64,000 bases of DNA. Source: an uncultured Rhodospirillaceae bacterium. GTDB taxonomy: Bacteria; Pseudomonadota; Alphaproteobacteria; Rhodospirillales; Casp-alpha2. Position numbers and translations under genes: made by a program. Numbering within the stretch: position 1 is the stretch's first letter; each line of letters opens with the position of its first letter. Positions 1,830 through 15,911 of this stretch are shown piece after piece. The stretch covers positions 1 to 64,000 of the forward strand of contig CAJWCU010000004.1 of the NCBI GenBank assembly GCA_913030825.1, written 5' to 3'. The notes under the pieces were generated by a model that saw nothing but the letters and a program-made list of their open reading frames with translations, was not told the origin of the DNA and did not search any database.

Positions 1830-4800
1830 CTAATTGCTTCTTGCTTCCTCGACCAAGGCCTCCAGTTCAGCGCGGGTTCGCGCCCGTAAGCGCCCTAGGC
1901 CAATTCGTGAGGCGCAAAGTGCAGGAATGTCTGCGGCCGGGTGCGCGGTACTGAGAACCGACTTAACCAACCCTAATTTCTCTGGATAAGGCACATCATT
2001 CCATCCCCGAGGTTGTCCATTTACCTCAAGGCCCCGGAAGGGAAGGTGGGAGCAAGGTTCAGTGTTCTTAGGCCAAAAGATTTTTTGTCCATCAGGCGCT
2101 GCGGTATAACGCCGCTTGCGCTGTACCGCACGCCAGACGACGCGTTTGATCTCGCGCCCGGTTCGCTGGTATCCGTGTCGCCTTGCGATACGCTCACTGA
2201 GCAGTTTGAAAGTTATTGGTCCTTCAGAATCGATGACCTCACATCCCAGTGCTGCGATTGTCTTTAGGTAGCTGTCTTCGTAGAAAATGTCGGGGTTAAG
2301 TTTCAGGTCGGATGTCGATTTCGCCGGGGGGGCTTCCTGGAAGAGATCAGGTGCTTGAGGTCGCAGATTCTCGCCATCCTTATTTGGTTGAGCAACGGTC
2401 AAACCCGAAGTTTCACCCGACTGTGTGCTGAGTTCTTCCTCTAGCTCTATTGAGTGTTCCTCACTCTGATCAGCGGTCTCGACATCGTCGATCTCATCAG
2501 GCAAAGAAGGGCTTTGGGCCGACGCGTCAAACGACGATTGGCCCTCCCGCAAAATGACATCTCCCGCCATTCCCGCGACTTTTTGTGCTTCTTCCTGCTC
2601 AAAAGCACGCCGTTCAGCTTCAGCGCGGTCCTGATCAAGCAGTTCTTGTAAGCGCGCATTGACCCGTTCAAGAGTGTGTCGCGGATCAAGGAAGAAGTCG
2701 GTCGACCATATTCGCACCAGTTTCCAATTCAGGCGTTCAAGAATGGCGTGACGCACACGATCTCGATCCCGCGCACAGGGTAACGAGTGATACGTCGCAC
2801 CGTCGCACTCAACGCCGGCCAGGTACCGCCCCGGCTCTTCAGGATGGACAATGCCAAGGTCGATCCTGAATTTCGAAACGCCGACTTGCGTATGAACGGT
2901 CCAACCGTGCCGACGAAGGCCTTCTGCAACGACAAATTCAAAATCAGAATCATAGGTATCCGTGCCGCCAACGGACTGGATTGCCTCTCCCAAGGCCAGG
3001 GTGCCGCGTGCTGCAAAATCGAGGTAATGTTTCAGGTGTCGAACCGCAACGGACTGGGTGCGGCTCAGGTCGATCATGCTTGGGTCAAAGCTGGAAAACA
3101 CGACCACTTCAGATGTTGCTCGTGTGATCGCGACATTTAAACGTCGCTCACCGCCCTGCCGATTGAGAGGGCCGAAATTCATGGACATCGTCTGTGCGCC
3201 GGGCTCAGTCGGTCCATAGCCAATGCTTATGAGAATGACATCGCGTTGATCCCCCTGCACGGTTTCCAAGTTCTTGACGAAAACCGGTTCCTCGTTGTCA
3301 TCTCTGAAAAACGGTTCCAATGACTCGTCGGTGCGGCGTTCGGCATCGAGCAGGTCAAGAATCAACCGCTGTTGTTCAGAGTTAAGGGTAACGACACCGA
3401 TGCTGAACTTGCTAAGGTCCGGGTCGCGCAACCGACGCAAAATTTCTTCTACGGTGGCTTTCGCTTCTATTGGGTTGGTGCGGTCTTTCCCCTTGCCATA
3501 GATGCCGTCAACTTTTCGGATTGCAACGACGGTATCTCGAGTCTCCGCTGACGGATAGGTGACCAATTGACTGTTGTAATAAGCATAGTTGGAAAACGCG
3601 ATTAGGCTCTCATGCCTGCTGCGATAGTGTCCGGTAAGGCGCCAGTGCTTTACCGAAGCCGCCATGGCTTCATCCAAAATGCTTTCCAAATCACCGCCAA
3701 ATCCGGAATCGTCATCGTCGCTGTCGTCACTTGTTACTGCCCCTTTCTCGAAGAAATTGGTCGGCGGCATTTGTTTGGGGTCTCCGACAATGACGGTTCG
3801 TTTCCCCCTAGCGATTGCTCCGATGGCGTCCCACACCGTTATTTGAGAGGCCTCGTCAAAAACGACTAGGTCGAAGGCAGGCGTTTCGGCGCTCAGGTAT
3901 TGCGCGACGGAGAGGGGGCTCATCAGGAGACAAGGCGTCAAGGTCAGGAGCGCATCGCTGGATTCGTTTATGATTTTGCGGACCGGGAAATGCCTTTTCT
4001 TGGCCAACTCACGCCTAAGAAAAGAAAAGCCGGCATCCTTTCCAATCTTATCACGCTCCGGCACTTGGCCAGAAAGCCGCGCCCTGATGTATGAGCTGGT
4101 CATCTCTGCCAACTCTTGATCCAACTTTCGGAACGTCGTGATCGTTTCCTCCTGGGAGGAGCCGGAAAAAGTCCGCAGTTCATTCCGTGCATCGATCAGC
4201 TTAGGCGCCAACCAGACACAATAGGCGGTCAAGGCTGTTTCGCGGGCTTGGTCGGGGTCTACGCCACCAGCGATTAACCCAGTCACCAACGGCTCCAATG
4301 CTTCTGCCTCTGCCTTTCGGCGTAGTTCCACCCATTGGCACCAAGGATTGAGCCGGACGGCCCGCTCCAATACAGCCTCCGCAACGCGGACAAGTTGATC
4401 AAGGCTCCAATCCGCTTCAGTCTGCTCCACTGGATCAGGTTGGACCACGGCCATGCCGATGCTTTGTCGGAACGCGCTCGCACATCTTGTGAATTCACTC
4501 AATGAGCTAACAAACGACTGCCCCGCCTCTGAAATAGGCATGCCAGGCTCCAACATTTCCCGACCTTCCACGAAGCGTTTGCGGAAGATGGGCCGCAGGT
4601 CCGCTATGTCAGTATTGAACCCGGCCAAAGTGATCATGGAGCGGCGCAATCGTTTTGCGGCCTCGGCCGCTGTCCGAACTTTGCCGATATCCGTACTGAG
4701 ACCTTGCCAAGGCGCATCCGTTGGAAGTTGCTCAGATGCCTTGTCCATACGTTCCGCTGTTCGTTGCAGCTTCTTCAGCGTGGGCAAGTCGGTGTCGGGC

Positions 4801-7800
4801 TTGATGCCGGACTTGCCGAACCCAAAGTGCTGGGCGATCTTCTTACGTACTCCGCTTTGACCAAACAAACGGAGGGGCCAGATACGATCTGAAGCGAGAT
4901 TCCATTGCTCGGTCCATTCGGAAACGGGAGCCGAACGAATTGCAGCGTCAGAAAACGGCTGCGACAGCTCCTCGCGAGCTTGTCGATAGGATTCCAGTTC
5001 CTTCAGTGCATCTTCCAGCGCTTCGAAAGTCGTTGGAGCATCAGGCGATAGGCCGAATCCGAGATCTTGTGCGTGGGCGGCGGACAACTGATCGACTAGG
5101 TCTTCGAGCGCCGCAAATGCGCCTTTCGTTCGCGCACTGAGCTCTATTCCCATTCGATCAAGGAAGACAGCAGTCACTTGTTCAATATCTTCTGCCGCGA
5201 CAACAACTGCCTTGGCTTCGCTCAGGACTTGGTCTTGCCACGCGAACGACCATTCCTCGTGATCAATCTCCTCAAAGTACTCAAGGTCAGCCTTTTCCAA
5301 CTCCTTAAACTGGCGTCCGAGATCATGGGCGAGCCTCAGCAGCGCCTCCAGTCCTTCGGATGACTTCGCGCGGTCGTCCCGCTGAAGGTCTTGCCCCCAA
5401 TCAAGGCGCACCCGGTGAAACTCTTTAAATCGGACTGCTCTTGCCAGTGCCTGGCGGGGACTGAGACCGGTCGGGCCCGGCTTGTGGAGCGCGGCAACCA
5501 AGCCATTCAGTCGGTCTCGGGCTAGTTTCAATTCATCGGCGGTGTGTTGCCATTCCGACGCGGTGCGCTTCAACCTTTCATCCCAGGCTCGATCCAACTG
5601 GGCGATGACATCCTTCTTGTTCGCTTTGTTGGAATGCAGTTCGAGGCAAAAATCGCCGAGCCCCTTACTTTGGAGCCGGCGATACACGACTTCCAGGGCG
5701 GCCATCTTCTCGGAGACGAACAGGACACGCCGCCCAAGGGCGAGATTGTGAGCAATGATATTGCCGATAGTTTCAGACTTGCCCGTGCCGGGCGGTCCTT
5801 CAAGCACGAAGTCGCCATCTTGGGCCGAGGCATGGACCGCGACGATCTGGGAACTATCAGCATTCAGCGGCATGAATAGATCGCCGGGCTGAATCTCTTG
5901 GTCGATCTCTGTTGGGTCCAAAAACGATGCGGAATTGCCGTATGGGTCGCGCGGAGTGTCGATCATGTGCCGTACGAACGGGCTTTGCTTGAGTGCTTCC
6001 GTACGGTCCGACAGGTCTTTCCACATCAGGTACTTCGCAAATGAGAAGGTGCTCAACACCACCTCTGGGACGACCTCAAAACCGGGGATGTCACGAACGC
6101 GTTGTCGTACGGTTTGCCAAATCGACGGTACGTCGATGCCGCTATGGTCTTGTGGTAAATCCCCGGCAAGCTCGGGAATGGAGACTTGGAACTCTTGCCG
6201 CAACAACTCGAGCAAGGTCAGGTTAAAGACAGAATCGTCTTCGTGGTGTGAGAGTTTCACCTTGGAAAGAGCGCTCGAGCGATCCAGCTTCACTGGCAGC
6301 AATATCAAAGGTGCGCGATACTGTCTTTTGTCGCCGGCTGGAGTCCAGCGCAGCATGCCGAGAGCCAAAAAGAGCGTGTTTGCTCCACCTTCCTGGAGGT
6401 CGAGTTTGGCCTTCCGATAAAGCCCTATAAGTCCGGCCTGCAGATCCTTCTCATTGGTTTGGGCGACGACCTGTTCATTGTTCAATGCGTCCAGTGCGAA
6501 TTCTTCGGAAAAGTCATCTCCGGTTCGAAGCAGCATGATTTGATCATCCGGCGCCCCGTCACGTCGCTCCCTGATAGGAGGAGTGATGAACGTCATGCTC
6601 TTGTCGTCAGCCAGTTTGTCTTCCAGTTTGGCCGGGTCGGGACAGAATATCTGTATGGCGGTTTTGGATGGCCGCAAGTTCAATAGTCGGTTGCGCTTGC
6701 TGAGATCCAGGAGCTTTCGCTTCCAGTTGTCCAACCGACCTTCCGCTGTGTCAGGCGGGGGGGCGGTTTCCAGACCGAAGTCAAATCCAGGTAGATCATC
6801 CGGTGGACCTTCGATTGCCGGGATGATTGACGCGCTGGCGCCATATGCCGATGCGTCCGCATCGGCTGTTGTGCCCTTAGATGGCAAGGGGCCAATCTGG
6901 CGCGTTCGCGCTTGTTTGATGTCGATGGCGTACACAAACTCTTGTTCGCGATCTTCCGCGATCTGACGATCGGCTTCACGAATGGCCTTGGAAAATGGAG
7001 GTGGAGTTGAGCCGGCAACCAAGGTCGTCTCGAAAAGAACCAGTTCTTTCGCCGCAACTGCCTTTCGCAGTTCCATTGGATCATCGGTTGTGAGTTGCGA
7101 GAGAGTTTGTGGCTGCAGCCAGACGCCCGCGAAGGCATGACCTTGCGTAAATGCGATAACGGTGTTGAGGCCGATTTGCTCCAGGGCTGCGGCGAAAATA
7201 AGAGCTGTATCCAGGCACGTCGCCAGCCCTTGGTCTTCCATGTCCGAAGGGCTGCGAACCTTTTGGCCTTCGCGTTCGAAACTCGCGGGGGGATTGGCGT
7301 AGGTCAATTGTCTCGCAGAGACAGCCGCCCACACAGCCGCTGTCAATTCCCATATACGAGCGCGGGATTTGCTTTGATAGCCTTCAAGCGATGGGCTTTT
7401 GCCTTGTTGCTCCAAGAGGTGAGAGGTTGATTTAAGTAATCTTTGAACCGCGTTATCGTTCGGCATTACGAACGCTGCCAGCAGTTCAGGCATATGATTT
7501 GCGCCGCCCCATTCGTTGCGCGCTAACGCTCTCACATCGTGAGCGGAACTTGCGACTACATCCCCTTGGTGGATTAGCTCCAACCTGACGGTCGCAAGAA
7601 GGCTTTCGTTAAGTTCATCAAGTAGACCGCCTTTCAGAGATACATCGCGATCATGGAGGCGGAGTTCGGAACCGGGAGCAAGCCGGTCGATTGTCCAAGT
7701 TTTTGAGCCAATAATCTCGGGCTCGGCAGTCAGGGAGAGGGTTAATCCTTCAAGCTGGCCTTCCGTTGGGTTGCGAATGACTAGGTCGCGAAGCAACGGC

Positions 7801-7928
7801 ACGGCGCACTGGTGCGTGGCAAAGGTGATCCTCGTTGCGACGTCAGCTTCGATCGAGACCTGGGGAAGTGGCGCAATTTCGCCATCCGTTTCTGATTTCG
7901 ACGGCTCCTGCCGATCTGATATGTCCAA
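1830..7928 (-). CDS. DUF4011 giant: transglutaminase-like, SF1 helicase, Vsr-like nuclease and DUF3320 domains
   Basis: A 2032-residue protein. Residues 190-300 contain ATCLDTALIFAAALE and TQGHAFAGVWL, with candidate Cys238 and His264 of a transglutaminase-like fold. Residues 395-545 match DUF4011 (NWKRKLLDLSKRNRLLNLR). An SF1 Upf1-like helicase follows, with Walker A EGPPGTGKSETIGN near 710, a long coiled insertion, Walker B VVFDEASQI near 1355, then GHYRSRHESLIAFSN, ETVQGDQRDVILIS and LNVAITRAT. Residues ~1660-1745 form a Vsr/MTES_1575-like nuclease (RIDLGI, GVECDGATYHS). A DUF3320-like segment lies near 1900-1965. Large DUF4011 helicase-nucleases are recurrent in defence islands, and some have been reported as anti-phage; I recall the name Hhe but cannot verify it. 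The gene is convergent with the DUF3223 gene, 115 nt apart. All motifs look intact. Confidence 0.85.
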   Translation of the reverse strand: MDISDRQEPSKSETDGEIAPLPQVSIEADVATRITFATHQCAVPLLRDLVIRNPTEGQLEGLTLSLTAEPEIIGSKTWTIDRLAPGSELRLHDRDVSLKGGLLDELNESLLATVRLELIHQGDVVASSAHDVRALARNEWGGANHMPELLAAFVMPNDNAVQRLLKSTSHLLEQQGKSPSLEGYQSKSRARIWELTAAVWAAVSARQLTYANPPASFEREGQKVRSPSDMEDQGLATCLDTALIFAAALEQIGLNTVIAFTQGHAFAGVWLQPQTLSQLTTDDPMELRKAVAAKELVLFETTLVAGSTPPPFSKAIREADRQIAEDREQEFVYAIDIKQARTRQIGPLPSKGTTADADASAYGASASIIPAIEGPPDDLPGFDFGLETAPPPDTAEGRLDNWKRKLLDLSKRNRLLNLRPSKTAIQIFCPDPAKLEDKLADDKSMTFITPPIRERRDGAPDDQIMLLRTGDDFSEEFALDALNNEQVVAQTNEKDLQAGLIGLYRKAKLDLQEGGANTLFLALGMLRWTPAGDKRQYRAPLILLPVKLDRSSALSKVKLSHHEDDSVFNLTLLELLRQEFQVSIPELAGDLPQDHSGIDVPSIWQTVRQRVRDIPGFEVVPEVVLSTFSFAKYLMWKDLSDRTEALKQSPFVRHMIDTPRDPYGNSASFLDPTEIDQEIQPGDLFMPLNADSSQIVAVHASAQDGDFVLEGPPGTGKSETIGNIIAHNLALGRRVLFVSEKMAALEVVYRRLQSKGLGDFCLELHSNKANKKDVIAQLDRAWDERLKRTASEWQHTADELKLARDRLNGLVAALHKPGPTGLSPRQALARAVRFKEFHRVRLDWGQDLQRDDRAKSSEGLEALLRLAHDLGRQFKELEKADLEYFEEIDHEEWSFAWQDQVLSEAKAVVVAAEDIEQVTAVFLDRMGIELSARTKGAFAALEDLVDQLSAAHAQDLGFGLSPDAPTTFEALEDALKELESYRQAREELSQPFSDAAIRSAPVSEWTEQWNLASDRIWPLRLFGQSGVRKKIAQHFGFGKSGIKPDTDLPTLKKLQRTAERMDKASEQLPTDAPWQGLSTDIGKVRTAAEAAKRLRRSMITLAGFNTDIADLRPIFRKRFVEGREMLEPGMPISEAGQSFVSSLSEFTRCASAFRQSIGMAVVQPDPVEQTEADWSLDQLVRVAEAVLERAVRLNPWCQWVELRRKAEAEALEPLVTGLIAGGVDPDQARETALTAYCVWLAPKLIDARNELRTFSGSSQEETITTFRKLDQELAEMTSSYIRARLSGQVPERDKIGKDAGFSFLRRELAKKRHFPVRKIINESSDALLTLTPCLLMSPLSVAQYLSAETPAFDLVVFDEASQITVWDAIGAIARGKRTVIVGDPKQMPPTNFFEKGAVTSDDSDDDDSGFGGDLESILDEAMAASVKHWRLTGHYRSRHESLIAFSNYAYYNSQLVTYPSAETRDTVVAIRKVDGIYGKGKDRTNPIEAKATVEEILRRLRDPDLSKFSIGVVTLNSEQQRLILDLLDAERRTDESLEPFFRDDNEEPVFVKNLETVQGDQRDVILISIGYGPTEPGAQTMSMNFGPLNRQGGERRLNVAITRATSEVVVFSSFDPSMIDLSRTQSVAVRHLKHYLDFAARGTLALGEAIQSVGGTDTYDSDFEFVVAEGLRRHGWTVHTQVGVSKFRIDLGIVHPEEPGRYLAGVECDGATYHSLPCARDRDRVRHAILERLNWKLVRIWSTDFFLDPRHTLERVNARLQELLDQDRAEAERRAFEQEEAQKVAGMAGDVILREGQSSFDASAQSPSLPDEIDDVETADQSEEHSIELEEELSTQSGETSGLTVAQPNKDGENLRPQAPDLFQEAPPAKSTSDLKLNPDIFYEDSYLKTIAALGCEVIDSEGPITFKLLSERIARRHGYQRTGREIKRVVWRAVQRKRRYTAAPDGQKIFWPKNTEPCSHLPFRGLEVNGQPRGWNDVPYPEKLGLVKSVLSTAHPAADIPALCASRIGLGRLRARTRAELEALVEEARSN

Positions 7929-7997
7929 TTGGTATGCTCCCAGCCCAGAGGCGATATTAAAGATTGAATCGCCTTAGTTTGGAAGCGCCGAAGTTTT

Positions 7998-8026
7998 TTG
8001 CATCAACCTAATGCGCGAATTTTTAT
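7998..8026 (+). promoter_or_regulatory. Possible promoter for the structured leader/RNA
   Basis: A TTGCAT hexamer (7998-8003) and a TTTTAT hexamer (8021-8026) are separated by 17 bp in the AT-rich stretch between the giant gene and the hairpin region. This would place a start near 8033. Both hexamers are imperfect, so the call is tentative. Confidence 0.3.
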
Positions 8027-8095
8027 TTTTCCCATTATGTTGAGATGACTTTTTTCTGTGCACTTCCATTCTCTGCCGGTTTGAGCGAGACTCCG

Positions 8096-8249
8096 CCCTG
8101 GAGCCGCGACGCACGGCTCTGGGGCTTGGAAACCCCTCACAGAGCGGTCGTTACTGACCGTAACAGTGACCCTGACTTATGGTCGGGGTGCCTGGGCTAT
8201 GTCCAGGCCACCCGGCTAAAATCCCAGGGGCCGTCTCTGTGCGGTTTTT
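8096..8249 (+). ncRNA. Candidate structured RNA or 5' leader with consecutive hairpins
   Basis: This non-coding stretch holds strong hairpins in immediate succession. They are 8096-8105 with 8115-8124 (10 bp, two G-U); 8145-8149 with 8156-8160 (CGGTC/GACCG); 8170-8176 with 8182-8188 (7 bp, one G-U, loop TTATG); and 8190-8195 with 8203-8208 (GCCTGG/CCAGGC). An outer stem 8138-8144 with 8235-8241 (CACAGAG/CTCTGTG) encloses the last three and is followed by CGG and a T5 run (8245-8249), like an intrinsic terminator. CCTGGG at 8191-8196 can instead pair with CCCAGG at 8223-8228, giving an alternative fold. A further hairpin (CCAGC/GCTGG, about 8285-8300) lies just before the next gene's ribosome site. 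I do not recognise a known RNA family. It could be a free small RNA or a leader of the secreted-protein gene. Confidence 0.5.
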
Positions 8250-8336
8250 CCAACACCCCGATCACCAGTCTGGTTGAAGCCACCTTCCAGCGGGCGCGCT
8301 GGAGGCTCTGGCCTCGGACTATGGGAGAGGGTTCTC

Positions 8337-8858
8337 ATGCAATTTGGAAAGCGATGGATCGCCGGCCTCTTGGCCGGTGGAATTGCTGCGGCCATGGTGG
8401 CGCATCAGCCTGCAGCAGCGCAAGACACCCAACTGGGTGTTTGGGAGTACGATGCGAACAACGACAGTTTAACCAAGACGCGATCACACGCTGCGTTCGT
8501 TTTCGACGGGTCGGCGGCAAAGCTTGGATTGTTGGTGGTGAAATGCGATCGGGAGGATCTGGCGCCCTACGTCAAATATACTCGCCACGGCGTTTTTTTC
8601 GGCACGGATGGCCCGACCTTGGCTCGATATCGTGTCGATGAAAATGACCTTCACGAAGAAGATTGGCGGCTATTCGAGAAAAGCGTTGTGAACTTCAATA
8701 AGGGGCAGGTCTACGGCATGGTCCAGCAGATGATCACTGGCTCCTCAGTCACCGTCGAGGTCTCGGACTTTCGTTATCGAAAGTATCGGACGGTGTTCGG
8801 CTTAAAGGGCTCGGCTAGCGCCTTGAACAAGGTTCTGGAGAACTGCGGCGACAAGTGA
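8337..8858 (+). CDS. Small exported protein, possibly TagO/VasI-like fold
   Basis: A 173-residue protein with an obvious signal peptide: positive start MQFGKRW, a hydrophobic Ala/Gly core, then PAAAQD at about 25-30. The start at 8337 is chosen because GGGAGAGGG sits just upstream and the signal peptide begins there; the frame stays open further upstream but that part reads as non-coding. The mature part has two cysteines, in LLVVKCDR and near the C-terminus in LNKVLENCG. The layout (short strands, central RYRVDEND, W, FGLKGSASALNKVLENC) resembles proteins annotated as type VI secretion-associated TagO/VasI, but this is weak similarity from memory and no type VI genes are present. It may be cargo of the island. 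Confidence 0.55.
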   Translation: MQFGKRWIAGLLAGGIAAAMVAHQPAAAQDTQLGVWEYDANNDSLTKTRSHAAFVFDGSAAKLGLLVVKCDREDLAPYVKYTRHGVFFGTDGPTLARYRVDENDLHEEDWRLFEKSVVNFNKGQVYGMVQQMITGSSVTVEVSDFRYRKYRTVFGLKGSASALNKVLENCGDK

Positions 8859-9065
8859 GATTGAGGCTGATTTCAATAACTTGTGCTGACTAAGGCGCCA
8901 GTCTCACAAAATATTGTTGCGTAGAGGTTTTTCCTCGCGTTACGATTCAGGCGTTATCTCCCTACCAAGGAGGGTGTGAAGGGGAGATGGCAGTGGTTTA
9001 AACCGCTGCTGTCTCGTCGTCCTTGGTGGGCCATCGGACAGCGGCACATTTGTGGAGCATGTCCG

Positions 9066-10460
9066 ATGGGAAAGCACCCTCTTCCCGAAAAGCATCATAA
9101 CCAGCGCCTCTACGTCGACGAGATTCTTGTTGATCAGGTCGAGTACGTCCCGATTGAAGTTCTGTCCCCGTATCGGGGGCACGCCCGTAAACATCCGAAA
9201 AGACAATTGAAGGCACTGGAACGCGGGATCGCGGCGTTCGGTTTCATCGTCCCAGTCTTGGTGGGGGAGGACGGTGAGGTCGTCGCCGGCCATGCTCGCG
9301 TCCTGGTCGCCAATCAATTGGGGTATACGAAGGTCCCGGTGATCCGCCTACCACATCTGAGCCCAGCTCAGATCCGAGCCTTCCGATTGGCCGACAACAA
9401 ACTTGCTGAACTAAGTGAGTGGGACGAAGACAAGTTGGCCCTCGAACTCCGCGACCTGATCGAAATCGACTTCGACGTCGACCTGACTGGGTTTGAGGTG
9501 GCCGAGGTGGACCTCATCATCGACAGCCAGTTCTCTCCGGTCGGCGCGACGCCGGCGGACGAGGTGCCAGGTGTAGCAGACGAGCCGGTGTCGTGCCTGG
9601 GCGACCTATGGATGCTCGACGAGCAGTGCGTCTTGTGCGGCGACGCCCGAGATCCAGACGCCTACGCCGCCGTCCTACAGGGTCGCCTCGCAGCCATGGT
9701 GGTCACGGATTCTCCGTACAACGTTAAGGTCCAGGGCAACGTCTGCGGTTCGGGGGCCATCAAGCATGGCGAGTTCGTCATGGCCTCGGGTGAGATGTCA
9801 GAGGAGCAATTCCGGGGTTTCCTGGAAGCCATCATCCACAATCTCCTCATATCGACGGCGCCGGGATCGCTCCACTACCTGTTCATGGATTGGCGGCATC
9901 TCTGCGTGTTGCAGGAGGTCTGCGACAGGCTCTACGGCCCCCAGGTAAACCTGTGTGTCTGGGTCAAGACGAACGGCGGCATGGGATCGTTCTACCGGTC
10001 CCGGCACGAACTGGTGGTCATCTACAAGAACGGTTCGGCGCCCCACGTCAATAACGTCCAGCTTGGCCAGTATGGCCGCAACCGTACCAACGTTTGGGAG
10101 TACGAGGGGGCCAATAGCCTGTCCCCGAAGCGACGGGCAGACCTGGCGCTGCATCCGACTGTGAAACCCGTGGAGATGATCGCTGACGCCATCCGGGATG
10201 CCTCCAACCGCGGCGACCTGATCCTAGACCCATTCCTCGGATCCGGCACCACGGTGATCGCTTGCGAACAGACTGGGCGCACCTGTGCCGGGATGGAACT
10301 GGACCCCAAGTACGTGGATGTCATCGTCCGGCGGTGGGAATCCTTCACCGGCGGTGAGGCGCGCCATGCCGGCACCGGCCTGACCTTCAGGGAGATGGCG
10401 GACCACCGGAGCGGCAATGTCTTGATGCTGCCGGCGCCGTCACAGGGTGGGGAGGCGTGA
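9066..10460 (+). CDS. ParB-like N-terminal domain fused to DNA adenine/cytosine-N4 methyltransferase
   Basis: About 464 residues. The N-terminal third is a ParB/Srx-type domain (VLSPYRGHARKHPKRQ; FIVPVLVGEDGEVVAGHAR; VIRLPHLSPAQIRAFRLADNK). The rest is a beta-group methyltransferase with permuted order: a motif IV equivalent VTDSPYNV, then the AdoMet motif LDPFLGSGTTVIACE near the C-terminus. Motif IV reads DSPY where the family normally has DPPY. The ATG at 9066 has GGAG nine bases upstream; a GTG at 8976 in the same frame is possible but its purine-rich site is too close. The stop is 2 nt before the DUF5681 start. In alphaproteobacteria such fusions recur beside DUF5681 and terminase genes; their biological role is not established. 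Confidence 0.8.
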   Translation: MGKHPLPEKHHNQRLYVDEILVDQVEYVPIEVLSPYRGHARKHPKRQLKALERGIAAFGFIVPVLVGEDGEVVAGHARVLVANQLGYTKVPVIRLPHLSPAQIRAFRLADNKLAELSEWDEDKLALELRDLIEIDFDVDLTGFEVAEVDLIIDSQFSPVGATPADEVPGVADEPVSCLGDLWMLDEQCVLCGDARDPDAYAAVLQGRLAAMVVTDSPYNVKVQGNVCGSGAIKHGEFVMASGEMSEEQFRGFLEAIIHNLLISTAPGSLHYLFMDWRHLCVLQEVCDRLYGPQVNLCVWVKTNGGMGSFYRSRHELVVIYKNGSAPHVNNVQLGQYGRNRTNVWEYEGANSLSPKRRADLALHPTVKPVEMIADAIRDASNRGDLILDPFLGSGTTVIACEQTGRTCAGMELDPKYVDVIVRRWESFTGGEARHAGTGLTFREMADHRSGNVLMLPAPSQGGEA

Positions 10461-10461
10461 C

Positions 10462-10872
10462 ATGGCGATCAAGAAGGAGCCGAAGAAGGGCTACGAGGTC
10501 GGATACAAGAAGCCGCCCAAGCATAGCCAATTCAAACCTGGCCAGTCAGGCAATCCGAAGGGCCGGCCCAGTGGCGCCAAAAATCTCTCGACGGAGCTGT
10601 TGGAGGAGCTCCATGAGCGTGTACGTGTCACGGAGGACGGCAAACAGAAGACGATCTCCAAGCAGCGAGCAATGCTCAAGTCGTTGATGGCCAAAGCCGT
10701 CAAAGGCGACACCAAGGCCGCCAATACCCTTCTCAACATGTTCCTCAAACTGGTCCCTGCAGAGGAGAAGGACACGGAAGGCAGGGAATTCACCCGAACC
10801 GATGAGCAGGTCCTGGAGGACTTCAAGGCCGCTTTGTTGTCGCAGGCACTAAACAAGGAAAAAGGTCGATGA
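10462..10872 (+). CDS. DUF5681 domain protein
   Basis: A 136-residue basic protein with the characteristic N-terminal KPPKHSQFKPGQSGNPKGRP motif of DUF5681, followed by a helical, Lys/Glu-rich remainder. The start ATG at 10462 is supported by GGGGAGG at 10448-10454. It lies between the ParB-methyltransferase and the terminase large subunit and overlaps the terminase start by 4 nt. The position and small size suggest, but do not prove, a role like a small terminase subunit or other DNA-recognition partner. Confidence 0.75.
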   Translation: MAIKKEPKKGYEVGYKKPPKHSQFKPGQSGNPKGRPSGAKNLSTELLEELHERVRVTEDGKQKTISKQRAMLKSLMAKAVKGDTKAANTLLNMFLKLVPAEEKDTEGREFTRTDEQVLEDFKAALLSQALNKEKGR

Positions 10873-12299
10873 ACGACCATCAGGATGTAGACCGAGAGCT
10901 ATTAAGAGCGATCTATCGGACCGACTTAAAAGCATTTTACCGGAAGGCGGTCGAGGAACTCTTTCCGGGCCGGAGCTACCATCCCGCCGAATACATCGCA
11001 GCGGTCACCTATGCGCTGAGCCAGGTTTTGGATGGCGAGGTTACCCGCCAGATCATCAATATGCCCCCGCGCCACTTCAAGTCGTCGATCATTTCGGTCG
11101 TGTTCCCGGCCTTTGTCCTGGGCCACGATCCGAGCCGAAAGATCATCTGCGTCTCTTACGGAAGCGATTTGGCCGCGGAACTGCACAATCTGACCCGCGA
11201 ACTTATGAAATCGGATTTTTACCGGTGGGTGTTCACGGAAACGAAGATCAAGGCCGGCAAGGACACGGAGACGGAGATCAAAACCACCAAGAACGGTGGG
11301 CGGCGTGCAGTTTCCACAGGAGGGCCGATCACCGGGTTCGGCGCTGACTTGATCATCGGGGACGATCTCATGAAGCCGGAGGACGCCAACAGCGAGGTGA
11401 AGCGTGCGAAGGCCAACAGCTACCTACAAAGCACACTTCTATCGCGGCTGGAGGAGAAGAAGCATGGCGCCATGGTCTTGGTGCAACAGCGCCTCCACGT
11501 GGACGACACCACAGGCCATTTGCTCGATAGCGGAAACTGGGAACACCTAAGCCTGCCGGCGATCGCGGTAAAGAAGGAGAAAATCTACGTCGGAGACGAG
11601 CAGTGGTTCCTGCGGGAACCGGGAGAGGCATTGGATCCTGTCCGTGAGGACCTGGAGACCCTAGCAAAAATCAAAGCCGAAGTCGGCGAACAAGTGTTCT
11701 CATCCCAATGGCAGCAATTCCCCACCTTGCCCGGCGGGAACATGTTGAAGCTTGAGCAGTTCCGGCGATACGAGGTCCTGCCGCCCAGGCATTGGTTGGA
11801 GTACTACGTGCAAAGCTGGGACACGGCCGTAACGGCATCGGATACCAGCGACTACTCCGTCTGTACGACCTGGGGGAAGCGCGGTAACCACCACTACCTG
11901 ATCGACGTATGCCGGGTGAAGTTGGAATACCCGGATCTCCGGAAGGCTGTGGAGGAGCAATTTCTGAAGCATGGGCCCAAGTTGGTGATCTTGGAGGGCT
12001 CGCACATCGGAAAAGCGCTGTACCGTGAATTCTACCGCTCCAAGTACTGCAGAGAGACCAACGATGGCCCGATCGTGTTCAAGTTTTACACGCCGAGGGT
12101 CAGCAAAGAGGAAAGGGCAGCCGTTCAGTCCGTGAAGATTGAACAAGGGTTCGTCTGGTTGCCAACAGTAGCGGATTGGCTGGAAGTCTTCGAAAAGGAA
12201 GTCAGGGAGTTTCCGGTCGGCAAAAACGATGACCAGGTGGACAGCATGGTCCAGTACTTGGCTGTCATTGCGCTCCGGATCCCAAGGGTTAATTGGTAG
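10869..12299 (+). CDS. Phage terminase large subunit
   Basis: A 476-residue protein of typical full length. The ATPase part has a Walker A-like MPPRHFKSS (about residues 65-73), then VSYGSDLAAELH, and Walker B LIIGDDL near 160. The C-terminal RNase H-like nuclease begins at YVQSWDTAVTASDTSDYS near 320, and later acidic residues (ILEGSHIG, DDQVDSMVQYLA) fit the metal-binding positions. Such enzymes cut and translocate concatemeric phage DNA into proheads, yet no portal, capsid, protease or tail gene is present here. The gene overlaps DUF5681 by 4 nt (ATGA) and is followed by a hairpin terminator. It looks intact, not decayed. Confidence 0.9.
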   Translation: MNDHQDVDRELLRAIYRTDLKAFYRKAVEELFPGRSYHPAEYIAAVTYALSQVLDGEVTRQIINMPPRHFKSSIISVVFPAFVLGHDPSRKIICVSYGSDLAAELHNLTRELMKSDFYRWVFTETKIKAGKDTETEIKTTKNGGRRAVSTGGPITGFGADLIIGDDLMKPEDANSEVKRAKANSYLQSTLLSRLEEKKHGAMVLVQQRLHVDDTTGHLLDSGNWEHLSLPAIAVKKEKIYVGDEQWFLREPGEALDPVREDLETLAKIKAEVGEQVFSSQWQQFPTLPGGNMLKLEQFRRYEVLPPRHWLEYYVQSWDTAVTASDTSDYSVCTTWGKRGNHHYLIDVCRVKLEYPDLRKAVEEQFLKHGPKLVILEGSHIGKALYREFYRSKYCRETNDGPIVFKFYTPRVSKEERAAVQSVKIEQGFVWLPTVADWLEVFEKEVREFPVGKNDDQVDSMVQYLAVIALRIPRVNW

Positions 12300-12331
12300 G
12301 CTGCCGAAATCGACCTTCATTTCTCTTTGGT

Positions 12332-12362
12332 GGGGGCGGCGAGAATGCTGCCCCCGATTTTG
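12332..12362 (+). terminator. Likely transcription terminator after terminase gene
   Basis: GGGGGCGGC (12332-12340) pairs with GCTGCCCCC (12347-12355) across a six-base loop, one G-U pair included. The stem is followed by GATTTTG, a weak T-run. It lies 32 nt after the terminase stop. Confidence 0.5.
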
Positions 12363-12449
12363 TCGATCAATTGACTGGACTTCCGCTGCGAACAGAGCGG
12401 TACTGATCCCACGCGGTGAGGGACGCCAGGGCCCCTGAAAAGCCTCCAA

Positions 12450-12499
12450 CCACCGCCCGCCCGGACCGGTCCGACGACCGGCCGGGGTCTGGGCGGTGG
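12450..12499. repeat. 50-bp imperfect inverted repeat upstream of the DUF3489 gene
   Basis: CCACCGCCC (12450-12458) pairs perfectly with GGGCGGTGG (12491-12499). Inside are further self-complementary CCGG blocks around 12460-12486. It ends about 40 nt before the DUF3489 start. It could be a leader hairpin of the cassette or a recombinase/regulator binding site. Confidence 0.5.
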
Positions 12500-12540
12500 A
12501 AGCCCCTGCATCCCGCGGGGCGCGATCACGGAGGTGAAAT

Positions 12541-12795
12541 ATGACCGCCCAGACCAAATCGAAAACCACCAAACCCCAGCCCACCAAATCTGCAACCATC
12601 CTGAAGTTCATCAGCCGGCCTTCGGGCGCCAGCCTAGGCGTCCTGGAGAAGGCCACAGGCTGGCAGCCTCACAGCGTCCGCGCGGCGCTCACCGGCCTGC
12701 GCAAGGCTGGCCATGCCATCGAGCGCGATAAGGACGCCAAGGGGGTCACCGTCTACCGCGTCACCAAGGTGGCATCGGCGGCGGACGCATGCTGA
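12541..12795 (+). CDS. DUF3489 small winged-helix-like protein
   Basis: An 84-residue basic protein. After a Lys/Thr-rich start it has KFISRPSGASLGVLEKATGWQPHSVRAALTGLRKAGHAIERDK and ends GVTVYRV, the usual DUF3489 pattern, which looks like a small helix-turn-helix of the winged type. CGGAGGTGAAAT lies directly before the ATG. It overlaps the next gene by 7 nt. In alphaproteobacteria DUF3489, DUF2924 and a serine recombinase recur in this order, which suggests a functional unit, perhaps with this protein as a DNA-binding regulator or recombination directionality factor (inference). Confidence 0.75.
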   Translation: MTAQTKSKTTKPQPTKSATILKFISRPSGASLGVLEKATGWQPHSVRAALTGLRKAGHAIERDKDAKGVTVYRVTKVASAADAC

Positions 12796-13223
12796 GCCTG
12801 GACGACCTGGACGGCATGACGACGGTGGAACTGCGGGCGGCCTGGGAAGACGACCTGGGTCGTCCGCCGCCCTCCCGGGCGAGCGCCGACTGGATGCGCT
12901 CGGTGCTCGCCTACCGCATCCAGGAATGGGCGGGCCCGCGCCTGTCCAACGCCACCAAGCGGGAACTCGAGCGTATCGCCCGGGCGATCGAGAAGGACCG
13001 GGGCCACCAACCGAAGCCGACGAGGCAACTGAAGGCCGGGACCAAGCTGCTCCGCGAATGGAACGGCGTCGTCCATGAGGTGCAGGTGCTCGACGACGGC
13101 GCCGAATACCGGAGCACCCGGTTCCCCAGCCTCACGGCCGTCGCCAAGGAAATCACGGGGGCCCACTGGTCGGGCCCCCGGTTCTTCGGCCTGAAGACGC
13201 GGGGTAAAGCCGATGGCCGCTGA
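12789..13223 (+). CDS. DUF2924 protein
   Basis: A 144-residue protein with the DUF2924 pattern: TTVELRAAWEDDLGRPPP, LAYRIQEWAGPRLS, then PGTKL-type strand LKAGTKLLREWNGVVHEVQVLDDGAEY, and an FPSLTAVAKEITGAHWSGPRFFGL ending. The last segment resembles the AP2-like or RAMA-like fold where a short beta sheet reads DNA. It overlaps DUF3489 (7 nt) and the recombinase (11 nt), so the three genes are almost certainly co-translated. Function is not established; a recombinase accessory protein is the natural guess. Confidence 0.8.
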   Translation: MLSLDDLDGMTTVELRAAWEDDLGRPPPSRASADWMRSVLAYRIQEWAGPRLSNATKRELERIARAIEKDRGHQPKPTRQLKAGTKLLREWNGVVHEVQVLDDGAEYRSTRFPSLTAVAKEITGAHWSGPRFFGLKTRGKADGR

Positions 13224-14790
13224 TCGCAGGCTGAATTGCGCCGTCTACACGCGCAAGTCGTCCGAGGAGGGGCTGGAGCAGGAATTCAATTCGCTGGATG
13301 CCCAGCGCGAGGCCTGCGAGGCCTACGTCGCCAGCCAGAAGCACGAGGGATGGCGGCTCCTAAAGGATCGTTACGACGACGGCGGTATCTCCGGTGGCAC
13401 CATGGAGCGGCCGGGGCTGCAGCGCCTCCTCGCCGACGTGGCGGCGGGGAAGGTGCAGATCGTCGTCGTCTACAAGGTGGACCGGCTGACCCGCGCGCTC
13501 GCCGACTTCGCCAAGATCATCGAGGTCTTCGACGCCCAGGGCGCCTCCTTCGTCTCCGTCACCCAGCAGTTCAACACGACCACCTCCATGGGCCGGCTCA
13601 CCCTCAACGTGCTGCTCTCCTTCGCCCAGTTCGAACGCGAGGTCACGGGCGAGCGCATCCGCGACAAGATCGCGGCTTCGAAGCGCAAGGGCATGTGGAT
13701 GGGCGGCAACCCGCCGCTTGGCTACGACTGCCGGAACCGCAAGCTGGAAGTGGTTGAGGCGGAGGCGGAAACCGTCCGCCACATCTTCAGGCGTTACGCC
13801 GCCCTTGGCAACGTGCGGACGCTGAAGGCCGACCTGGATGCCGCCGGCATCGTCAGCAAGCTATGGACCTCGGCCAGCGGCCGCCGTGTCGGCGGCAAAC
13901 CCTTCGCCCGGGGCGCCCTCTACCACCTCCTGCAGAACCGCCTCTACCTGGGCGAGATCGTCCACAAGGGTCAGACCCACCCGGGCCAGCACGCCGCCAT
14001 CGTCGATCAATCGCTCTGGGACGAGGTGCAGGCAAAGCTCGCCGCCAACCGGATTGACCGTAAGCGCGGGACCAATGCGAAGGAGCCCAGCCTGCTTGCA
14101 GGTATCCTGTTCGATGAACATGGCCGCCGTCTGACGCCAAGTCACGCCAACAAGGGAGGCCGCCGCTACCGCTACTACGTCACCGACCCACGGGACGATG
14201 GCCGCATTCCGGCAATCCGCCTTCCGGCCAAGGAGGTGGAGAACGCAGTCCTTTCGGAGTTGAGGCGATATCTGGAAAGTGAATGTATTCGGCAAGGCCG
14301 CAGTCTGGTTGGAGATAGTGATTGCCTGAGCTTCTTGCGATCGGACGTAATCAAGGTCGTCCTTGGTGAGGCGGAGATCGAAGTATTGCTTAAGGCGCCG
14401 AACGACAGCGAGGAACATTCCTTATGTGTGCCTTACACGCTTCGGCGAAGAGGCGTTGAAACCAAGCTCGTTCTGGACCCCGATATACACCCGCGTCAAT
14501 CCAACCCGGATCCGGCGTTGATCAGAGGAATTGCCAAGGCCTTCATGTGGAACAAACGACTAATGGCTGGCGACCCGTCGTCTCTACGCACGTTGGCGCG
14601 CGCTGAAGGCGTCAGTGTTCGCTACATCCAGAAGCTTCTGCCACTCGCATACCTAAGTCCAAGCATCGTAGGCGTAATCCTCGAGGGGCATCAGCCTCGC
14701 GATCTAACTTTGGAGGCGCTTGTCAATTCGGAAGTGCCTGTTGATTGGAAAAGTCAGGCCACAATGTTCCGGTTCCTCCATTGCTTTTGA
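13213..14790 (+). CDS. Large serine recombinase
   Basis: A 525-residue protein. The resolvase-type catalytic domain spans about residues 8-160, with CAVYTRKSS (nucleophile Ser16), KVDRLTRALADF and ERIRDKIAASKRKGMWMGG. The recombinase domain follows at ~185-290 (FARGALYHLLQNRLYLGEIVHKG). The usual zinc-ribbon region (~300-330) lacks paired cysteines. A C-terminal helix-turn-helix-like segment has SVRYIQKLLPLAYLSP. The protein probably catalyses integration or excision of this island. Base composition drops noticeably after about 14,230, so the C-terminal third is more AT-rich than the catalytic part. The gene overlaps DUF2924 by 11 nt. Confidence 0.9.
   Translation: MAADRRLNCAVYTRKSSEEGLEQEFNSLDAQREACEAYVASQKHEGWRLLKDRYDDGGISGGTMERPGLQRLLADVAAGKVQIVVVYKVDRLTRALADFAKIIEVFDAQGASFVSVTQQFNTTTSMGRLTLNVLLSFAQFEREVTGERIRDKIAASKRKGMWMGGNPPLGYDCRNRKLEVVEAEAETVRHIFRRYAALGNVRTLKADLDAAGIVSKLWTSASGRRVGGKPFARGALYHLLQNRLYLGEIVHKGQTHPGQHAAIVDQSLWDEVQAKLAANRIDRKRGTNAKEPSLLAGILFDEHGRRLTPSHANKGGRRYRYYVTDPRDDGRIPAIRLPAKEVENAVLSELRRYLESECIRQGRSLVGDSDCLSFLRSDVIKVVLGEAEIEVLLKAPNDSEEHSLCVPYTLRRRGVETKLVLDPDIHPRQSNPDPALIRGIAKAFMWNKRLMAGDPSSLRTLARAEGVSVRYIQKLLPLAYLSPSIVGVILEGHQPRDLTLEALVNSEVPVDWKSQATMFRFLHCF

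Positions 14791-15819: not shown

Positions 15820-15911
<92 letters not shown>

Follow-up and report, generated by a model that had tools for sequence, protein, structure and literature searches.

Immunity in satellite phage P4 depends on the CI RNA, which is processed from the leader that it controls and acts by pairing with target copies that flank it. The C4 RNA, as described in PMC5320573, is released from a longer RNA by cleavage at a GGW sequence and carries variable a' and b' loops, with b' falling partly over ribosome-binding sites; GGW cleavage and variable specificity loops are described there for the Acinetobacter C4 RNAs, and a c4-a1b1 motif was listed by Weinberg et al. 2010 (PMC2864571). 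In Xanthomonas, end mapping gave sRNA-Xcc1 a length of 88 nt (PMC2996969), and this RNA stands before symE in integron cassettes (PMC12444791). Rfam output places C4 in a clan of its own and sRNA-Xcc1 in none.

Within the window (the whole stretch of DNA analysed, 64,000 nucleotides), no Rfam family other than a tRNA reached its threshold. In a permissive Rfam search of positions 7930-8960, sRNA-Xcc1 (RF02221) scored best, with 31.0 bits at 8181-8271 (threshold 53), and C4 (RF01695) reached 21.8 bits at 8175-8269 (gathering threshold 45). The sRNA-Xcc1 model gave 31.6 and 31.3 bits, both below 53, in loci L006 and L002, and a scan of 36 homologous loci returned ar14 and tRNAs and neither C4 nor sRNA-Xcc1 at threshold; on Rhizobium etli plasmid p42d (L017), the leader is preceded, at a distance of about 1 kb, by an ar14 sRNA gene (6941-7067, minus strand). 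A literature search by title and opening of the abstract, with most subscription journals outside its coverage, returned no description of this leader family.

An earlier note on this DNA had pointed to an unrecognised RNA with several hairpins and alternative pairings at 8096-8310, between genes, and had offered as one explanation that it leads the gene of an exported protein. The hairpin-rich stretch is indeed present and intergenic: the segment 8033-8260 folds to -101.3 kcal/mol (z = -4.78), against a mean of -76.7 kcal/mol for its shuffles, and 0 of 200 shuffles matched the native fold. The search for compensatory changes that the note had proposed was positive across 87 non-redundant copies, and with no Rfam threshold reached there, its description as an unrecognised structured RNA holds. 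The extent required adjustment, as the conserved RNA runs from P1 to P7 (about 8097-8302) and takes in more than the hairpins originally listed. Judged from comparison of sequences, 8097-8302 on the plus strand is a real folded RNA, and its proposed role as leader of the exported-protein gene at 8337 is supported (Table 1). A coding explanation was considered and rejected: a 198-codon frame spans the region, the copies vary in length and change compensatorily, and the better start is 8337.

Table 1. Positions of the leader elements and of the cargo gene in the window
Feature	Positions	Strand	Evidence
Whole conserved leader RNA, P1 to P7	8097..8302	+	87-copy non-redundant alignment; fold z-score
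Hairpin P1, probable 5' end of the transcript	8100..8120	+	both-side changes in 6/7 pairs; 67% of cells paired in the 87-row alignment as made
Hairpin P2, loop carrying target a (8126-8132)	8121..8136	+	97.7% of cells paired
Target b, CACAGAG	8138..8144	+	partner b' at 8235-8241; at least 6 bp in 80/87 rows
Variable hairpin P3	8145..8160	+	fold and alignment by eye, without pair-by-pair count
C4-type closing stem, 5' arm	8181..8190	+	starts GGT in 87/87 rows
Alternative P4	8190-8195/8203-8208, extended 8186-8195/8203-8213	+	weak covariation
P5	8191-8196/8223-8228	+	compensatory changes
Near-invariant segments ATGTCCAGG and CTAAA inside P5	within 8191..8228	+	87-row alignment; invariance partly imposed by the degenerate search pattern
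Hairpin P6, b' (8235-8241) in its loop	8231..8244, stem 8231-8233/8242-8244	+	3/3 pairs change on both sides; 100% paired
Antisense a', including the T-run of the earlier note	8247..8253	+	match to P2 loop; covariation
C4-type closing stem, 3' arm	8254..8263	+	pairing with 8181-8190
Hairpin P7	8287..8302	+	95% of cells paired; 5/6 pairs change on both sides
Cargo gene, predicted 173-aa exported protein	8337..8858	+	ORF; start by ribosome site and distance

The leader belongs to a large and mobile family. At the DNA level, 12 of the 100 related genomes searched contained a match, doubtful in two cases; discounted matches comprised 22 bases within an ABC-transporter gene (L012) and a partial match (L011). 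Among plasmids, 38 records matched, 23 of them from Rhizobium and 31 typed as conjugative, and the DNA search of phage records gave no match. A degenerate core pattern recovered at least 118 stretches in species genomes and 6 in predicted viral contigs; by organism name, the 80 matches listed comprise 7 from Acidobacteria, 2 from Gammaproteobacteria and 2 from 'Proteobacteria', with the remainder from Alphaproteobacteria. The collected loci hold 140 instances of the core pattern (duplicates included, e.g. L003/L040 and L005, L013/L141), mainly from Alphaproteobacteria with some from Acidobacteria; 135 of these were complete, and 87 remained upon dropping copies at least 90% alike. When a covariance model built from 58 of these 87 rows (L093 and 28 others unused) was run on 387 genomes sampled evenly across the class, the window's among them, 53 had copies, with up to 7 per genome. 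The window's genome has two; the second (L014, G000 contig C28, 28-188, minus strand) carries a different b and is broken within P6, in b', near the contig start, and an ORF resembling a cytosine methyltransferase (by eye) lies near it. Standalone C4 cores acting as separate trans RNAs were sought among the partial matches with no clean case, the candidates either being close to or at a contig end (G408, G136:C98) or carrying P2-like sequence upstream.

Across the 87 rows, none of 500 shuffles reached any of five covariation measures, and slid versions were all lower (three counts). The closing stem (8181-8190/8254-8263) is paired in 99.5% of cells and varies little, with one pair changed on both sides. 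Of two mutually exclusive pairings proposed in the earlier note, P5 is upheld by strong compensatory changes (UA 27/CG 20 and AU 25/GC 25 at two pairs), whereas P4 shows weak covariation, its ten pairs being paired in 78% of cells and divided among 2 invariant, 5 with one-sided changes, 1 two-sided and 2 that depart solely by unpaired cells. GGT stands at the 5' base of the closing stem in every row, though the search pattern demanded GGT, and CACC or CGCC, part of a good RNase P site, follows the stem on its 3' side in just 36 of 87. One position of the P1 loop covaries with one of the P7 loop (C-G in 75 rows, T-A in 8, C-A/T-G in 0 and other combinations in 4, counted as rows rather than as independent events), and a loop-loop contact between P1 and P7 probably joins both ends of the RNA.

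Strand asymmetry of the pairs further points to an RNA read from the plus strand, as G-U cells outnumber A-C cells in the closing stem (87:3), P5 (48:0), P7 (35:6) and P2 (15:2). The excess is weaker in P1 (79:42) and P4 (95:59) and absent from P6 (2:2), a/a' (3:3) and b/b' (27:21), for an overall ratio of 391:138. These ratios bear on the idea that the conserved structure acts as single-stranded DNA, e.g. as an entry promoter or recombination site during movement of the element, which would suit the conjugative typing of 31 of the 38 matching plasmid records and the copies on phage-like DNA; the asymmetry in four helices, along with promoter-like spacing and a fixed distance to the start codon (below), points to RNA instead and leaves this idea very improbable.

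Upstream of P1, a -10-like hexamer lies 10-13 bases away in 63 of 85 copies, and both promoter hexamers score at least 8 in 36 of 85 copies compared to 15 of 85 shuffled ones, so the transcript probably starts at P1; for the window's leader, a strict promoter scan lists none on the plus strand. Downstream, 75 of the 140 instances have their chosen start codon 142-160 bases away from the core; individual choices may be wrong because the ORF picker favours good ribosome sites. The 81 genes found at 110-170 bases from the core form 34 dissimilar groups (35% identity). Among 20 group representatives compared to Pfam, 10 have no family and 1 has one solely below the cut-off; the remaining names are outer-membrane barrel (2), HTH_3, RovC_DNA-bd, SH3_3, BamE, DUF5818, zinc ribbon and GGDEF/PAS, and no pathway is common to these 20 of the 34 groups. 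The cargo protein of the window has no Pfam family and a weak match to phrog_1848 (E = 9e-4).

Several features of the surroundings were recorded as well. A 2032-aa protein (1833-7928, minus strand) matches two PADLOC models of candidate defence systems, PDC-S37 at 1171 bits and Hhe at 581 bits. On the other side, a ParB-like DNA methyltransferase, a terminase large subunit and a serine integrase occupy 8976-14790; these phage-like genes separate the leader's gene from a tRNA-Ser gene (15823-15911, minus strand), an arrangement that resembles the edge of an integrated phage-like element. Elsewhere, three diverged copies in one multi-copy genome (L232, L233 and L234 in G388) stand directly 5' of genes whose first codons, judged by eye from a motif, resemble those of glycosyltransferases.

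The leader also carries a matched pair of segments. CACAGAG (8138-8144) and CTCTGTG (8235-8241) had been described in the earlier note as an outer stem; their pairing is borne out and backed by covariation, but rather than an outer stem it is one half of an a-b/b'-a' pairing that crosses the closing stem 8181-8190/8254-8263. The geometry is reciprocal: on the target side a is the looped segment and b the linker, and on the antisense side b' is the looped segment and a' the linker. The a/a' match is at least 5 bp in 85 of 87 rows, and the most variable a pair occurs in all four types (GC 41, AU 26, CG 14, UA 4); 25% of swapped a/a' partners reach the own median because few a/a' variants exist. 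The a' arm also accounts for the T-run at 8245-8249, on which the note had based an alternative of a free RNA with a terminator at 8249. That alternative is not supported, since the conserved RNA extends to about 8302 and relatives replace the T-run with sequences such as TTACTAA, TTTCGAA and TTTGCAA, each complementary to its P2 loop; a mechanical scan does rate 8225-8239 plus the T-run as terminator-like (0.6 expected in shuffles).

The best b/b' runs (Table 1) have a mean score of 7.5 for own partners compared to 4.2 when partners are swapped, and 3% of swapped partners reach the own median. To judge from 59 copy pairs with under 12% divergence in the rest of the RNA, b excepted (pairs that are not independent, with misalignment of b possibly inflating its figure), b/b' diverges by 44%; the corresponding values are 21% (P3), 16% (P1 stem), 11% (P5 tip), 6% (a/a') and 2% (P5). 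Thus, b/b' is the fastest-changing of the helices measured, and its complementarity is kept. By eye, b differs among copies of the same genome in 7 of 7 groups, the two copies in Rhizobium aethiopicum differing by one base. When 59 copies from 13 multi-copy genomes were compared (L192 left out), b' had a mean score of 7.5 with its own upstream window and of 5.9 with those of its siblings; the own b beat every sibling in 32 copies and failed to do so in 27, the cause in some being a broken copy, a contig end or a divergence too great for the fixed windows.

Collectively, these comparisons are strong evidence for a fast-changing matched pair within a folded RNA, and the pair suggests RNA-based self-recognition like that of a known phage immunity RNA, although a matched variable stem could also drift without any action in trans. 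In a rival reading the leader works in cis only, a/a' and b/b' forming the long stem of a pseudoknotted RNA whose switch is thrown by a metabolite or protein. Consistent with it are the near-invariant internal-loop segments ATGTCCAGG and CTAAA (an invariance partly imposed by the search pattern), the compact whole that the P1-P7 loop contact would create, and the absence of a downstream target (below). Against it, the cargo proteins form 34 dissimilar groups with no common pathway among the 20 checked; furthermore, the rate of change in b/b' is roughly double that in P3, although free drift would be expected of the P3 stem as well, and the antisense half resembles known antisense RNAs. On balance, we consider a purely cis-acting leader unlikely.

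The two pairings define two states. The a-b/b'-a' duplex crosses the closing stem, and P4 and P5 compete with each other; on paper, therefore, the folds are mutually exclusive in the absence of pseudoknots. We folded 49 leaders together with their start codon (the other 38 of 87 rows, having no start codon 130-170 bases from the core, were excluded from this and from the ribosome-site comparisons), and the minimum fold was the duplex state in 37, the C4 state in 5 and neither in 7, with the duplex state lower by a mean of 7.9 kcal/mol (sd 5.2). In these leaders the ribosome site is equally paired in both states (0.63 vs 0.65). Pairing between the ribosome site and the 3' arm of the closing stem was nonetheless enriched: runs of at least 6 bp occur in 41% of the 49, the figures for 375 other genes and for shuffles being 5.9% and 7.3%, and runs of at least 7 bp in 27% of the family, compared to 1.1% and 2.6%, respectively. 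Sequestration of the ribosome site by this arm is still hypothetical, as the window's copy offers just 4 bp between the two and the folds reveal no overall difference between states. In diverged relatives L209, L216, L218 and L233, a hairpin and T-run resembling an intrinsic terminator (by eye) come right after the closing stem. Either a terminator-like hairpin or pairing with the ribosome site would make the 3' arm an output switch in some relatives.

The fold, the family, the complementarity between the a/b target and the a'/b' antisense segments and the exclusive states can be read directly from the aligned copies; trans action, processing and direction of control are what we infer from them for a C4-type leader. 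We hypothesize, at a probability of roughly 0.55, that the element is a mobile, two-state, C4-type antisense leader that carries its own target and gates a cargo gene. Briefly, the C4-like part, from the GGT at 8181, would be cut out of leader transcripts, and the freed RNA would pair with a-b in further leaders of its type while these are being transcribed. Once its a-b is occupied, a leader could not make its own long duplex and would fold into the C4 state; a competitor on a-b would be needed for that state, and the C4-like RNA of another transcript is the natural candidate. The C4 state would then alter how the downstream gene is expressed, probably lowering its output in an established element; an element that has just arrived, by contrast, would find no RNA that matches its own and could express its cargo immediately. 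Variable b/b' would keep the circuits of different elements apart, and candidate output steps are ribosome access or, in terminator-bearing subfamilies, termination.

A more far-reaching proposal, which we offer tentatively and with less confidence than the leader mechanism itself, is that the b/b' pairs serve as RNA 'barcodes', each a private and rapidly diversifying antisense-target pair by which the resident element of a large class of mobile DNA in Alphaproteobacteria and Acidobacteria recognises and silences only its own kind. If true, one portable RNA module would provide copy sensing, immunity and an arrival burst for dozens of unrelated cargo genes, and its output would be a two-state refolding of the leader, unlike the ribosome-site occlusion of phage C4. 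Irrespective of this proposal, the family is large, lies below every Rfam 15 threshold in the loci tested and precedes many genes of unknown function, to which the leader offers a testable mode of control. It also suggests a second C4-type architecture, without a ribosome-site target, on plasmids, phage-like elements and chromosomes.

To set the leader beside the described RNAs, the Rfam models of C4 and sRNA-Xcc1 were each run on 249 genomes and the best 30 loci of each were taken; 4 of 30 and 6 of 30, respectively, were shorter than 3070 bases and excluded, leaving 26 C4 and 24 sRNA-Xcc1 loci. Among these best loci, the second-hairpin half had complementarity of at least 8 upstream in 16 of 26 C4 loci (11% when swapped) and downstream in 20 of 26 (9% when swapped); for sRNA-Xcc1 the upstream figure was 21 of 24 (17% when swapped) and the downstream figure 14 of 24 (11% when swapped). 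The first-hairpin half exhibited no upstream excess in either. By eye, the downstream site overlaps the Shine-Dalgarno sequence in several of these loci. sRNA-Xcc1 loci (L236-L265) and C4 loci (L266-L295) thus have one anatomy of upstream and downstream targets, and the C4-like targets of sRNA-Xcc1 may explain its action on the following gene, e.g. symE in integron cassettes (PMC12444791).

In the leader family, a similar though not identical test found the upstream target of b' (66% of own pairs reach 7, compared to 5% swapped) and no downstream target for either b' (5% own vs 8% swapped reaching 7) or a' (5 of 87 own vs 6.9%). This result weighs on the possibility that the leader is an ordinary C4 antisense RNA that represses translation downstream by covering the ribosome-binding site. 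The identical nested layout, the invariant GGT at the base of the stem and the upstream a-b target all speak for it; the downstream target of the C4 loci was not found, such that the family average already contradicts it, and the score stayed at 21.8 of 45 bits with neither model at threshold in the 36 homologous loci, making an ordinary C4 RNA distinctly improbable.

The P4 CI RNA, as described above, resembles the leader in its proposed mode of action. sRNA-Xcc1, the closest resemblance in Rfam, has the same order of hairpins and an upstream matching target, from which the leader differs in scoring below 53 and in having no downstream target. The C4 RNA of phages P1 and P7 shares the GG(T) closing stem around two hairpins, the second of which presents an antisense loop, as well as a' and b' antisense segments that match an upstream a1/b1 target and many copies per genome with differing loops. 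Since the layout is C4-like, the model score below threshold and one target (a2/b2 over the ribosome site) missing, we conclude that the leader works like C4 in layout and, by model score, is not a member of that family. In comparison to C4, it adds P1, P7 and the P1-P7 loop contact, places its specificity in b', the loop of the second hairpin, and is found here in Alphaproteobacteria and Acidobacteria.
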